Source: Halosimplex litoreum (lineage in GTDB: Archaea; Halobacteriota; Halobacteria; Halobacteriales; Haloarculaceae). Taken from it: 64,000 nt of DNA. The position numbers and the translations under genes were made by a program. Below the pieces are notes generated by a model. That model was not told the origin of the DNA. It made no database searches and worked only from the letters and a program-made list of their open reading frames with translations. The DNA lies in assembly GCF_016065055.1 (NCBI RefSeq), contig NZ_CP065856.1, positions 2,355,836 to 2,419,835 of the forward strand, written 5' to 3'. Below, one piece after another: positions 23,614-62,050 of this stretch (positions are counted from its first letter, which is position 1; each line of letters begins with the position of its first letter).

Positions 23614-23771
23614 GGCCAAACGTCGATCCCCGAACGGTCGGTAATTTCCGTCCAAACCGATCTATAGTGTGCAAGTCTGCCGAAATGGGGGAGATATATA
23701 CAGAATATTAGGGTGTTCGGTGACGTATGTCCACAACGTTTTAGAGGGTGTGTGAGACGATATCAGATAGG
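23614..23771. other. AT-rich promoter region before the interrupted zinc-ribbon frame
   Basis: This stretch is unusually A/T-rich for the window (gagatatatacag near 23690-23702; ttttaga at 23739-23745). The latter lies about 27-33 nt before ATG 23772 and fits a promoter. I see no gene in it. Confidence 0.4.
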
Positions 23772-57660: not shown

Positions 57661-58401
57661 TCACTGATTCTGCCGTTCGGGCCCGCTCGCGCCGTCGGGC
57701 TGCTCGACGCGTCGCTCCCAGAACCCGTCGTCGAGATAGCGGTCGTCGATACCACGGCCGAGCGCCCGCGCCGCTCGACCGACCGTGGCCCACAGGACCC
57801 GCTGGAGCGGCGCGGGCGCGACCGTCGTCACCGTATCGGGATACACCTCCGCGGCGAGCGCGAGCGCGTCCAGCGGGGCCGGCTGGCCGTCCGCCTCCCC
57901 CTCGCCGAGGGCGGCCTCGGCGTCCAACCCCCACGCCGTGTACAGCGACGCGACGGTCCGCATCGACGGCAACTCCGCCCGGAACGCCACGACCCCGTCG
58001 GTGTCGTTTCGGAACGAATGTTCGACGCCGGCCTCGACGGTCACCGACTCGCCGGGACCGAGTCGGCGGCGCTCGCCGTCCACCTCGACGGTCAGCGTCC
58101 CCGAGACCACCTCGAAGGTCTCGCTCGCCGGGTGGTAGTGGGTCGGCGTCGCCGGCGCGTCGGTCTCGAGCCACTGCGCGAGGACCGGCCGCTCGGTCTC
58201 CCCCTCCCCGGGTCGTTCGAGCAGCGTCGCCCAGAGGTCGGCGCCGGGACTGGCAGCGAGCGCCCGCGGCGACTCGCGGAGCAGCGCCGCTGCCGGGCCG
58301 TCGCGGTCGAGTTCGAGCGCCGGCCCCGCGTTCGGTCGTCCGTCGTCGTCGAGTGGCCTGCCGGTCGTCAGGACGGCGGCCGACCGCGTCGCTTCGGTCA
58401 T
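57661..58401 (-). CDS. Cupin-domain protein
   Basis: 246 residues from ATG 58401. The cupin motif 1 is THYHPASETFEVVSG (near 94-108) and motif 2 is VEAGVEHSFRND with EAGVEHSFRN. Two His and one Glu may bind a metal. The C-terminal part (about 150-246) has no recognised domain. The gene is divergent from the HTH_10 regulator at 58487, which may control it. Cupins have many functions; this one cannot be assigned. Confidence 0.82.
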   Translation of the reverse strand: MTEATRSAAVLTTGRPLDDDGRPNAGPALELDRDGPAAALLRESPRALAASPGADLWATLLERPGEGETERPVLAQWLETDAPATPTHYHPASETFEVVSGTLTVEVDGERRRLGPGESVTVEAGVEHSFRNDTDGVVAFRAELPSMRTVASLYTAWGLDAEAALGEGEADGQPAPLDALALAAEVYPDTVTTVAPAPLQRVLWATVGRAARALGRGIDDRYLDDGFWERRVEQPDGASGPERQNQ

Positions 58402-58486
58402 AGTTCGACCGTCGGTCGCCGGACCCGTCGGCGTTCGGTGCAGTATGTTGCGGGAGTTTAAGTCCAGACGACGATACCGACGGACG
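58402..58486. promoter_or_regulatory. Divergent promoter between cupin and HTH_10 regulator 1
   Basis: A TATA-like gagtttaagtcc (58454-58465) lies 22-33 nt before ATG 58487 and reads CTTAAACTC on the minus strand. The same core may serve both genes, so the regulator could control itself and the cupin gene. Confidence 0.4.
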
Positions 58487-59161
58487 ATGAAACGCCTCCG
58501 AGTCACCGCGGCGGTCGACGGCGAACGCGCGCCGGCGTTCTACACGATGCTGGCCGACGCGCCGGGGATCGCAGAGACGCAACTGCTGGAGTGGAACGCG
58601 ACGCCCGATCCCGTCGAGACCGTGCTGTTCGCCGTCCGCGGCGACGCCGAGCCGTTCGCCGCGGCCGCGCCGGAGCTGGACGGGATCGAATCGGTCCGGC
58701 TCTCGCCGGCCGGGGGCCCGTGGACCTACGCGCTGGTCGAGGTGCGACCGCGTGCGACCGCAATGTTCGCGGCCGTCCGCGAGGCCCGGACGCGGTCGGG
58801 ACTGGTCGTTCGCAAACCGATCGTCTACCGCGACGGCGACATGCGCTTTCGCGTCGTCGGGGACGGCGACGCGCTCGGGGCGGCGCTGGCCGAGGCGCCC
58901 GACGCGATGGACGTGACCGTCGAGGCCGTCGGCGCGTTCCGAGGCGTGCTCGACCACCCCGCCTCGCGGCTGAGCGACCGCCAGCGCGAGGCCCTCGCTG
59001 TCGCCCAGGACCTCGGCTACTACGAGCGCCCCCGCGAGGCGACCCACGCCGACGTGGCCGCCGCCCTCGACTGCGCGCCCTCGACCGCCAGCCGCCACCT
59101 CCAGGCCGCCGAGGCCAAGCTCGTCGACGCCGCGATGGACGAGTTCGGTCCCGCGGTCTGA
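58487..59161 (+). CDS. HTH_10 transcription regulator 1
   Basis: 224 residues. A C-terminal HTH_10 (Bat-like) DNA-binding domain is clear: LSDRQREALAVAQDLGYYERPREATHADVAAALDCAPSTASRHLQAAEAKLVDAA. The N-terminal part (MKRLRVTAAVDGERAPAFYTML...) is shared with the regulator at 61352. It is divergent from the cupin gene. The stop-to-start gap to the ABC permease gene (convergent) is 43 bp. Confidence 0.87.
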   Translation: MKRLRVTAAVDGERAPAFYTMLADAPGIAETQLLEWNATPDPVETVLFAVRGDAEPFAAAAPELDGIESVRLSPAGGPWTYALVEVRPRATAMFAAVREARTRSGLVVRKPIVYRDGDMRFRVVGDGDALGAALAEAPDAMDVTVEAVGAFRGVLDHPASRLSDRQREALAVAQDLGYYERPREATHADVAAALDCAPSTASRHLQAAEAKLVDAAMDEFGPAV

Positions 59162-59204
59162 GTTCGATCGAACGCCGAGCGTCCGCGCTCCTCGGTCGGT
59201 CGCC

Positions 59205-60110
59205 TCAGGCCGCCTCGGCGCTGCTCGCTCGCGCCAGTAGTCGGACCGCGAGCGCGCCGACGACGAGGTTCAGCGCCGACAGGACGACGATTGCGGGTAC
59301 GAGCGTGTCGGCGACCCCGCCGAACCGCGAGACCGACAGCACCGTCGACGCGTCCCGCCCGAGGACCAGCGCCCGGACCGCGTCGACGCCGTACGTGATT
59401 GGGTTGAACGCCGCGACGGCCTCGATATCGTCCGAGAGCGGGACGAACGCGGGCGAGAGGAACAGGAGGGGAAACATGAACAGCATCGAGGCGGCGTTGA
59501 CCACCTCGTCGTCGCGGGCCAGCAGTCCGACGACGTTCGAGACGGCCATGAACAGCAGGGCGACGAGCAGACAGACCGCGACGACCCCCGCGACGCCGAC
59601 GGCGCCGGTCTCGACGCGCGCCCCCAGGGCGACGGCCAGGCCGACCACGACCAGCACCTGGACGACGACCCGGACGAGTTCGGCCACGGACTTCCCGAGG
59701 AGGACGGCGGTCCACGACATCGGCGTCACGACCGTCTTCTCGAACATCCCGCTCTCGAGGTCGCTCACGAGCCCCATCCCCGAGGAGAACGCCGACCCCA
59801 TCGTCGCCTGCATGAGCACCGCCGGGAGGAGGTAGGTGACGTAGTCCACCTCGGCGAACCCGGCGCGTTCGAGGGCGGCGCTCCCCACGTCGCCGAAGAC
59901 GGCCGTGAAGAGGACCAGCGAGAGCGTCGCGACGACGATCTCCAGCAGGAAGGCGGTCGGGTTGTGGACCGCCTTCCGCGTCCACCGCTTCGCGTTGACA
60001 CACACGTCCCCGAGGAACGTGTTCCCGGTCCCCGTCGCAGTCCGGGTCGACCGATCGGCCGCCGCCGTGGCGTCGGGCGCGTCGGCACCCGTCGCGTCGG
60101 GCGCGCTCAC
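59205..60110 (-). CDS. ABC-2 family permease (DrrB-like)
   Basis: 301 residues, about six membrane helices after a Ser/Thr/Asp-rich N-terminus; it matches DrrB/ABC-2 type permeases (FTAVFGDVGSAALERAGF, LESGMFEKTVVTPMSWTAVLLGKS, PLLFLSPAFVPL). It starts at GTG 60110, overlapping the ATPase stop by 4 nt (GTGA). With the upstream ATPase it forms a likely drug/lipid exporter or sensory exporter. Confidence 0.87.
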   Translation of the reverse strand: MSAPDATGADAPDATAAADRSTRTATGTGNTFLGDVCVNAKRWTRKAVHNPTAFLLEIVVATLSLVLFTAVFGDVGSAALERAGFAEVDYVTYLLPAVLMQATMGSAFSSGMGLVSDLESGMFEKTVVTPMSWTAVLLGKSVAELVRVVVQVLVVVGLAVALGARVETGAVGVAGVVAVCLLVALLFMAVSNVVGLLARDDEVVNAASMLFMFPLLFLSPAFVPLSDDIEAVAAFNPITYGVDAVRALVLGRDASTVLSVSRFGGVADTLVPAIVVLSALNLVVGALAVRLLARASSAEAA

Positions 60111-61264
60111 GCGTCCACCTCCGAGGGGACCGTCGACTCGTGGCCCTCCTCGTCGGACCGGCCCGTCTCGCGGCCGTCGTCACCGGACCGGTCGGGCGGG
60201 TCCCCGACCGAGTCGTCGGCGATGGCGAAGAACACGTCGTCCAGCGTCGGCTCCGCGACGGCGAACCCCGTCACCGCGAAGCCCGCGTCGCGGAGCGCGA
60301 CCAGCAGGTCCGGCCCCAGATCGCCGGCCTCCCGCGCCGTGACTCGGACGGCGTCGTCGGTCGTGTCGATCGCTGGCGCGTCGGCTCCGGCGCTGTCGAG
60401 CGCCGCCGACTCGCTGAGGACCGCCGCGGCCGACTCGACGGCGTCGGGACCGCCGCCGATCTCGAGCGCGACCGTTTCACCGCCGACGCGGCGCTTGAGC
60501 CGCTCGGGCGAGTCGTCGGCGACGATGCGACCGTCGCGGACGACCGCGATCCGGTCGCAGAGCCGGTCGGCCTCCTCGAGGTACTGCGTGGTGAGGAAGA
60601 CGGTCGTCCCGCGGTCGTTGATCCGTCGGAAGTACGTCCACAGGCGCTCGCGGGCCGTCGGGTCCAGCCCGGTCGTCGGCTCGTCGAGGAAGACGAGTTC
60701 CGGGTCGTGGACCAGCGCCGTCGCCGCGTCCAGCCGTTTTTTCATCCCGCCGGAGAAGCTCCCCGCAGGCGTGTCCGCCACGTCCGCCAGATCGACCAGA
60801 TCCAGCAGCGTGGCGATGCGGTCGGCCCGCCCGTCGGCCGGGACGCCGTAGGCGTCGCAGGCGAACGCGAGGTTCTCGCGGGCCGTGAGTTCCTCGTCGA
60901 CGCTCGTCTCCTGGGCCATGTAGCCGATCGACGCCCTGACTTCCGCGCGCTCGGCCGTCACGTCGCGGCCGACGACCCGGACGCGACCGGCGGTCGGTTC
61001 GAGTAGCGTCGCGAGCACTTTGATCGTCGTCGTCTTGCCGGCGCCGTTGGCCCCGAGGAAGCCGAAGCACTGACCTTCGGGGACCGCCAGCGTCACGTCC
61101 TCGACGGCCTCGGTCCCGTCGGCGTAGGTGAGCGCCAGTCCCTCGGCGTCGACGGCCAGCGGTCGGTCGCCGGTCGAGCGGGCGGTATCGTCGCCGACGG
61201 AGCGGTCGCCGTCGTCGGTGTCTCGCTTCGATCCCCGCGTCGGTCGCGCTGTCTCGTCGGACAT
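60107..61264 (-). CDS. ABC transporter ATPase (DrrA-like)
   Basis: 385 residues from ATG 61264. Walker A GANGAGKTTT, signature SFSGGMKKRL, Walker B LVFLDEPTTGLD and switch-His equivalent (TTQYLEEADRL) mark the DrrA/CcmA-type family. A C-terminal domain (about 270-385) with acidic tail fits the DrrA-type extra region (VAEPTLDDVFFAI). First gene of a two-gene exporter operon with the permease. Confidence 0.9.
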   Translation of the reverse strand: MSDETARPTRGSKRDTDDGDRSVGDDTARSTGDRPLAVDAEGLALTYADGTEAVEDVTLAVPEGQCFGFLGANGAGKTTTIKVLATLLEPTAGRVRVVGRDVTAERAEVRASIGYMAQETSVDEELTARENLAFACDAYGVPADGRADRIATLLDLVDLADVADTPAGSFSGGMKKRLDAATALVHDPELVFLDEPTTGLDPTARERLWTYFRRINDRGTTVFLTTQYLEEADRLCDRIAVVRDGRIVADDSPERLKRRVGGETVALEIGGGPDAVESAAAVLSESAALDSAGADAPAIDTTDDAVRVTAREAGDLGPDLLVALRDAGFAVTGFAVAEPTLDDVFFAIADDSVGDPPDRSGDDGRETGRSDEEGHESTVPSEVDA

Positions 61265-61318
61265 GTACTCCGGTGGTGCGGCGCGGTCGGGGAGGGCGTT
61301 CCGGGCGGCATAGAACCG

Positions 61319-61327
61319 GGATTTATT
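61319..61327 (+). promoter_or_regulatory. TATA-like promoter of HTH_10 regulator 2
   Basis: gatttatta lies 25-33 nt before GTG 61352. On the minus strand the same core would start a transcript for the ATPase gene with a roughly 30-nt leader, so the two divergent genes may share it. Confidence 0.4.
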
Positions 61328-61351
61328 ACCCCCTCGCCTGACTGTTCGGCA

Positions 61352-62050
61352 GTGAAACACGTCCGCGTCACCGCGGGCGTCGACGGCTCGCGGGCGCCGC
61401 CGCTGTTCGACCGGCTGGCGAACGCGACCGCCGTCGACCGGGCCCGCGTGATCGACTGGAACCTCGTGGCCGACGAGGCGATGGTCCTCCTCGCGGTCGA
61501 CGGCGACCCCACCCCGCTGGTCGACGTCGCGCCCGATACCCCCGGCGTCGAACGCTGCGAGGTGGTCGATCCCGACGGTCAGAGTTCAGGTGTGGGCACC
61601 GACGGGGCGTCCGCCCGCGTCTGCCTCCGCGTCGAACGGTCGGCGGTCCCGATCTTCGGGTGCCTCGCCGACGCGCTCGGGGCGGGCGGGCTGATCGTCC
61701 GGACGCCCGTGGTGTTCCGCGAGGGGGAGATCCACGCGACCGTCGTCGGCGACCCGGGGCCGCTCCAGACCGCCTTCGAGCGGCGAGGGGCGGACATCGA
61801 CGTCCGGATCGACGAGATCTCCTCGACGCCGGCCGCGAGTGAGTCCGTGGACGGGTCGCTGAGCGACCGCCAGCGCGAGGCACTGGTCGTCGCGAGGGAG
61901 CTGGGCTACTACGAACACCCTCGGGAGGCGACCCACGCCGACGTGGCCGCCGAGCTGGGCTGTTCGCCCCAGACCGCCGGGGAACACCTCCGGAGAGCGG
62001 AGGCGAAGCTCGCCGACGCAGCCCTCGACGAGGTCGGCCCCCGGGCCTGA
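61352..62050 (+). CDS. HTH_10 transcription regulator 2
   Basis: 232 residues starting at GTG 61352 (MKHVRVTAGVDGSRAPPLFDRL). The C-terminal HTH_10 reads LSDRQREALVVARELGYYEHPREATHADVAAELGCSPQTAGEHLRRAEAKLADAA. It is clearly a paralogue of the regulator at 58487 in both halves. It is divergent from the DrrA-like gene and lies just upstream of the GIY-YIG gene. It may control the exporter. Confidence 0.87.
   Translation: MKHVRVTAGVDGSRAPPLFDRLANATAVDRARVIDWNLVADEAMVLLAVDGDPTPLVDVAPDTPGVERCEVVDPDGQSSGVGTDGASARVCLRVERSAVPIFGCLADALGAGGLIVRTPVVFREGEIHATVVGDPGPLQTAFERRGADIDVRIDEISSTPAASESVDGSLSDRQREALVVARELGYYEHPREATHADVAAELGCSPQTAGEHLRRAEAKLADAALDEVGPRA

Follow-up and report, generated by a model that had tools for sequence, protein, structure and literature searches.

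Here we describe two neighbouring regulator–target pairs in a 64,000-nucleotide stretch of Halosimplex litoreum contig NZ_CP065856.1 (hereafter the window). The gene order from left to right is cupin (-), regulator REG1 (+), ATP-binding cassette (ABC) exporter permease and ATPase (-), and regulator REG2 (+), with the permease and ATPase reading frames overlapping (60107-60110). We consider it probable, from sequence comparisons, that these genes form two independent one-component modules lying side by side, in which each regulator stands back-to-back with one target across a gap that holds an operator and a TATA-like box. The divergent gaps between cupin and REG1 and between ATPase and REG2 measure 85-87 bp, and each contains one 14-bp candidate operator and one TATA-like box (Table 1). 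A preliminary description of the region had proposed this set of genes, and every gene is present and oriented as claimed. It had also proposed a TATA-like core shared by each divergent pair, and such boxes lie in both gaps, TTTAAG at 58457 and TTTATT at 61322.

A shared 14-bp element in the regulator promoters

Alignment of the upstream sequences of 42 regulators by the TATA box alone revealed an ungapped element, TTCTGyGnGGTATr, which starts 23 bp ahead of a TTTAW box in most of the regulator promoters. The distance between element and box is fixed across paralogues, without gaps. The TTTAW box itself is 30 (29-31) bp ahead of the start codon in most regulators, which is the geometry of leaderless transcripts; in Haloferax volcanii, 72% of protein-coding transcripts are leaderless (PMC4983044). 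Both element and TATA box are set back by a further 9-11 bp from the start codon at loci L171 and L174.

A strict form of the pattern, TTCTGYGNNGTAT-N10-TTTAW, has 13 matches in 116 genomes of the family and 12 in 293 genomes of the order, giving 16 distinct matches in ~353 haloarchaeal genomes, and the reversed pattern used as a control has 0. Fourteen of the 16 are found 53-73 bp 5' of a regulator gene of the HVO_0513_N–HTH_10 family. The other two precede a quinone-reductase-like gene of the zinc-binding dehydrogenase family that has such a regulator within ~1.2 kb. Since strict matches occur only at this regulator family or its target, the element belongs to the regulator subfamily. A general haloarchaeal core promoter was rejected, as the strict matches are confined to this regulator family and one target type.

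The window copies, TTCGGTGCAGTATG and TTCCGGGCGGCATA, are eroded versions of the element. When scored over ~128,000 window positions with a matrix trained on other genera and comprising operator, spacer and TATA box, they rank first and second. The window's genome as a whole was searched by pattern rather than by matrix, and a loosened pattern fitted to both window copies has no other exact match in its 4.16 Mb. The top operator-only match in the window is at 23716-23743 (+), where TTCGGTGACGTATG is followed by TTTTA in a gap on the downstream side of a gene for a predicted membrane protein. The match has no HTH_10 gene beside it, only a short cysteine-rich reading-frame remnant is present downstream, and it is possibly a chance occurrence or a decayed module. 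Reading of both window gaps found no NarO-type CGAAC-N2/4-GTTCG-like palindrome, of which CGAACATGTTCG is an example from a denitrification promoter (PMC10062603).

The element follows the target gene

Six loci have the regulator start displaced from the element. Two of these have an exporter as target (L164 and L175) and four have a quinone-reductase-like gene (L163, L167a, L168, and L173). The best element is upstream of the target in all six, and the regulator's own promoter is without it. In L175, the element has kept a distance of 33 bp from the ATPase ATG, though the REG2 orthologue is 2.8 kb off, behind another gene; in L164 the distance is 34 bp, compared with 33 bp (cupin) and 35 bp (ATPase) in the window. 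The TTTA is retained with the displaced elements. Because the element remains beside the target and the displaced regulator's promoter has lost it, this candidate 14-bp element is probably the target's operator, and by this arrangement the reversed TTTAW box may serve as the target's TATA box. A conserved gene pair and a gap element that tracks the target, the two marks of a divergent regulator–target module, were both found. Regulation of each divergent neighbour by its regulator, as the preliminary description proposed, is therefore well supported, by recurrence across genomes and by a conserved candidate operator that tracks the target.

These six loci also bear on whether the element is only the regulators' own core promoter or autoregulatory site, with the neighbouring genes uncontrolled. 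Such a role would account for the 14 of 16 strict matches directly upstream of a regulator gene, and for L169, which carries the site despite a non-divergent upstream neighbour. It is contradicted by the displaced loci, where the element is with the target and absent from the regulator promoter, and we regard it as very improbable.

Two separate modules rather than one paired system

The comparative set comprised 116 genomes of the family, with local maps drawn for 40 loci. The divergent cupin–REG1-type module is present in 12 of these genomes and the divergent ATPase-permease–REG2-type module in 12. Both occur in three genomes versus 1.24 expected, which does not exceed chance (P = 0.11, with relatedness ignored), and they adjoin each other only in the window and in a congener (G013, locus L145). 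Ten other genomes have the cupin–REG1-type pair without an adjoining exporter (L146-L153, L158, and L159), and a cupin–regulator pair is also found in other families (L198-L200). The exporter–regulator divergent pair stands without a cupin at nine mapped loci (L154-L157, L160, L161, L164, L165, and L172); in the genome of L154 (G093), the cupin pair is present at a separate locus. Recurrence exceeds chance for each divergent pair and not for the four-part bracket, which we rejected as a conserved unit. The paired-regulator system of the preliminary description is thus not upheld: each of its divergent pairs recurs, whereas the full gene order does not extend beyond the window and G013. At L161 (G032), the exporter–REG2 module is kept and the left slot is filled by a different ABC-2 exporter–regulator module instead of cupin–REG1, making G032 a second genome in which two modules of this kind adjoin each other at the locus.

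One side of the regulator tree holds every cupin-linked and exporter-linked regulator, though that split is weak (60/60). REG1 is inside a nine-row all-cupin clade (94/90), and REG2 is inside a 100/100 clade whose members are exporter-linked, except that of L175, which is a few kb from its exporter. Some exporter-linked regulators group with the cupin-linked ones, so regulators of the same stock have swapped partners.

A genuine paired system, in which REG1 and REG2 would cross-regulate cupin and exporter as one regulon for one compound, like LmrA/QdoR of Bacillus subtilis, seems improbable to us. The window sites are identical at 9 of 14 bases, a similarity reached by ~1% of random pairs of window 14-mers, and they are the only exact matches in the whole genome to their joint pattern, which was fitted to them. 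In G093, the sites of the two separate modules are identical at 11 of 14 bases. The cupin's top solved sequence relative is YxaG/QdoI, but that match is to a generic cupin barrel, for which TM1459-type cupins are equally good fits. The co-occurrence and adjacency counts above argue against a paired system, as do recognition helices and sites that have diverged in different directions. On the genomic evidence, the cupin–REG1 and ATPase-permease–REG2 pairs are separate modules and not one paired system. REG1 and REG2 have related sites and HTH domains, so some cross-talk between the two is possible.

Table 1 Coordinates of the cupin–REG1 and exporter–REG2 modules in the window
Feature	Position	Strand	Remarks
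Cupin_2 protein, 246 aa	57661..58401	-	predicted divergent target of REG1; PF07883 E 2.7e-17
Candidate operator A, TTCGGTGCAGTATG	58434..58447	+	33 bp 5' of cupin ATG, 53 bp 5' of REG1 ATG; diverged copy of the family element
TATA-like box TTTAAG	58457..58462	+	30 bp ahead of REG1 start codon; possibly common to cupin gene
REG1, HVO_0513_N + HTH_10 one-component regulator, 224 aa	58487..59161	+	cupin-linked clade
ABC-2 permease (DrrB-like), 301 aa	59205..60110	-	GTG start
ABC exporter ATPase (DrrA subfamily), 385 aa	60107..61264	-	predicted divergent target of REG2; TIGR01188 above cut-off
Candidate operator B, TTCCGGGCGGCATA	61299..61312	+	35 bp 5' of ATPase ATG, 53 bp 5' of REG2 GTG; diverged copy of the family element
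TATA-like box TTTATT	61322..61327	+	30 bp ahead of REG2 start codon; possibly common to ATPase gene
REG2, HVO_0513_N + HTH_10 one-component regulator, 232 aa	61352..62050	+	GTG start; exporter-linked clade

Domain architecture of the regulators

REG1 and REG2 are 42% identical overall and are paralogous in both domains, as the preliminary description had stated. Its "almost identical" HTH_10 is a little strong, with 39 of 52 residues identical (75%) and unlike recognition helices (APSTASRHLQ in REG1 and SPQTAGEHLR in REG2). Alignment of the N-terminal parts, which that description had recommended, shows about a third of positions identical (52/154). HVO_0513_N (PF24278) and HTH_10 (PF04967) score 64.0 and 58.9 bits in REG1 and 43.6 and 66.1 bits in REG2, against curated cut-offs of 29.8 and 23.1, and both Pfam domains are matched in 38/38 aligned family regulators (E<=0.001). 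Of the Bat-type domains, neither PAS nor GAF was found in REG1 or REG2, and BAT (PF15915) reaches 15.8 bits in REG2 versus a cut-off of 25.8 and is unlisted for REG1. The genome has 34 HTH_10 matches and one further close paralogue (269676-270326) that is divergent from an NmrA-type short-chain dehydrogenase/reductase (SDR) gene. The AlphaFold2 model of REG1 (predicted local distance difference test score, pLDDT, 86.8) contains two beta-alpha-beta-beta-alpha-beta units followed by the HTH. The N-terminal tandem domain would suit a ligand-binding role, and it may plausibly bind the exported ligand.

Cupin, exporter, and the targets of sister regulators

The cupin is predicted to form a single barrel with an HxH...E / H metal-ligand pattern and a helical C-terminal extension (AlphaFold2 pLDDT 88), and residues H88, H90, E94, and H128 are unchanged across 15 homologues. 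YxaG/QdoI is its top solved sequence match (E 6.6e-15), while its fold matches are generic. Identity as a quercetin 2,3-dioxygenase (QdoI/YxaG) is not supported, as that enzyme would have two barrels and ~337 amino acids rather than one barrel and 246, and the likeness is limited to the cupin barrel.

The exporter had been described as DrrAB-like. This holds for the ATPase, which passes the TIGR01188 drrA model (319.3 bits versus a cut-off of 312.45); the permease is only DrrB-like, far under the TIGR01247 DrrB cut-off (72.1 versus 223.05 bits) and yet clearly an ABC2_membrane protein. The permeases opposite these regulators group in a single clade (100/100). A second DrrAB-type exporter was found at L220 (G000:C1:1890500-1898500), L221, and L222; in the latter two, the ATPase is immediately preceded on its 5' side by a co-directional HTH_10 gene with a different N-terminal type. 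The window genome has an HTH_10 match (L015) at the corresponding place. The association of HTH_10 proteins with exporters is therefore broader than the HVO_0513_N–HTH_10 subfamily. We rejected the notion that the window's exporter clade is unique in having an HTH_10 neighbour, as its sister clade has a tandem HTH_10 gene of another N-terminal type.

The genes opposite sister regulators encode other ABC exporters, a CARDB protein together with an MMPL pump, enzymes of the quinone-reductase-like and NmrA/SDR types, and amidohydrolases. Because these targets are pumps or detoxification-type enzymes, they point to a response to noxious small molecules, which suggests that the subfamily regulators may be ligand-responsive, TetR-like local switches. 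At L166:5122-10288, a regulator of the same family faces genes for a CARDB-domain protein and an MMPL/RND exporter. The regulators at L171, L174, L177, and L167b face Amidohydro_1 enzymes (Pfam was run on L171 and L177).

A model for control of the targets

In the mechanism that we propose, REG1 and REG2 would bind the 14-bp element, and the N-terminal tandem domain would sense a small, probably toxic compound. The unliganded regulator would sit between the target's TATA box (reverse TTTAW) and the target start site and repress the target, and when bound it would also lie just upstream of its own promoter. Ligand would then lift repression, after which the cupin may modify noxious compounds and the exporter may expel them. 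Ligand-relieved repression is favoured here since, for the target, the element appears to be between TATA box and start site, which is a repressor position.

The main rival has the same modules with the opposite sign. The element would be an upstream activator sequence at which the regulator, once liganded, brings TBP/TFB to one divergent promoter or to both, in the manner of Bat at bop. The element is indeed just 5' of the regulator's TTTAW, and 33-35 bp separate its near end from the start codons of cupin and ATPase. Activation is nonetheless unlikely in our judgement, if less so than a paired system. Neither the cupin nor the ATPase start has a TATA-like box at -25 to -31. On the target side, the only good TATA box is the reversed TTTAW, which puts the element between TATA box and start site, and displaced sites keep the TTTA even if no regulator gene is transcribed from there.

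Several points weigh against two modules governed by ligand-relieved repression. The sign of regulation is read from geometry alone, and the characterised HTH_10 proteins Bat, NarO, and DmsR are known mainly as activators (PMC2253796, PMC11218638). In the quinone-reductase modules, the element is ~120-180 bp from the target start, a poor fit to occlusion. A perfect palindrome is not supported, the only symmetry being TTCTnT...AnAGAA in a minority of copies. With an operator-only matrix, likewise trained on other genera, the window copies rank only 11th and 31st of the ~128,000 positions. No credible solved relative emerged when folds were searched with the regulator model, the top partial match being 5m86 with a template modelling (TM) score of 0.44.

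Beyond the window, the HVO_0513_N–HTH_10 subfamily may re-use TTCTGyGnGGTATr-N9-TTTAW as a bidirectional promoter–operator cassette with varied detoxification targets. This would be an archaeal counterpart of TetR-type switches with a regulon readable from sequence, and we give this generalisation an even chance.

Comparison with known systems

HTH_10 proteins are a large group of haloarchaeal regulators, of which the few characterised members considered here, Bat, NarO, and DmsR, act in bacteriorhodopsin or anaerobic respiration. Our search of the literature on HTH_10/bacterio-opsin-activator regulators, HVO_0513, and the targets, which left subscription papers mostly outside its reach, found no description of this subfamily's candidate operator. 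A subfamily-specific candidate operator, together with the natural separation of operator from regulator, would allow targets to be predicted from sequence, and the modules are ready-made candidate ligand-inducible promoters for haloarchaea.

Like Bat, NarO, and DmsR, the window regulators have an HTH_10 DNA-binding domain and local or neighbouring candidate targets, and Bat also has an upstream element beside the bop TATA box. Unlike these proteins, REG1 and REG2 have an HVO_0513_N N-terminus with no PAS or GAF domain, and the targets here are pumps and detoxification-type enzymes rather than genes of respiration or bacteriorhodopsin. NarO-type denitrification promoters differ in having a CGAAC-N4-GTTCG-like palindrome in place of the candidate TTCTGyGnGGTATr. 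The DrrA/DrrB daunorubicin-resistance exporter is similarly a two-gene ABC-2 exporter whose DrrA subfamily cut-off the window ATPase meets, whereas the window permease is well below that for DrrB.

The closest functional analogy to the window arrangement is the LmrA/QdoR pair of B. subtilis, which governs the lmrAB efflux pump and the cupin dioxygenase gene qdoI (PMC8481877, citing Hirooka 2007). In such TetR/MarR-type local repressor pairs, the regulator gene adjoins a divergent gene for a pump or a dioxygenase and a shared operator occupies the gap, and LmrA and QdoR are likewise two paralogues with related sites that control one efflux pump and one cupin. In that pair, each regulator binds both operators and the ligand is a flavonoid. 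The proteins are unrelated: LmrA and QdoR are of the TetR family, whereas REG1 and REG2 combine HTH_10 with a predicted tandem beta-alpha-beta-beta-alpha-beta domain and would act at archaeal TATA promoters, and the window cupin is single-barrelled, not a QdoI-like bicupin.

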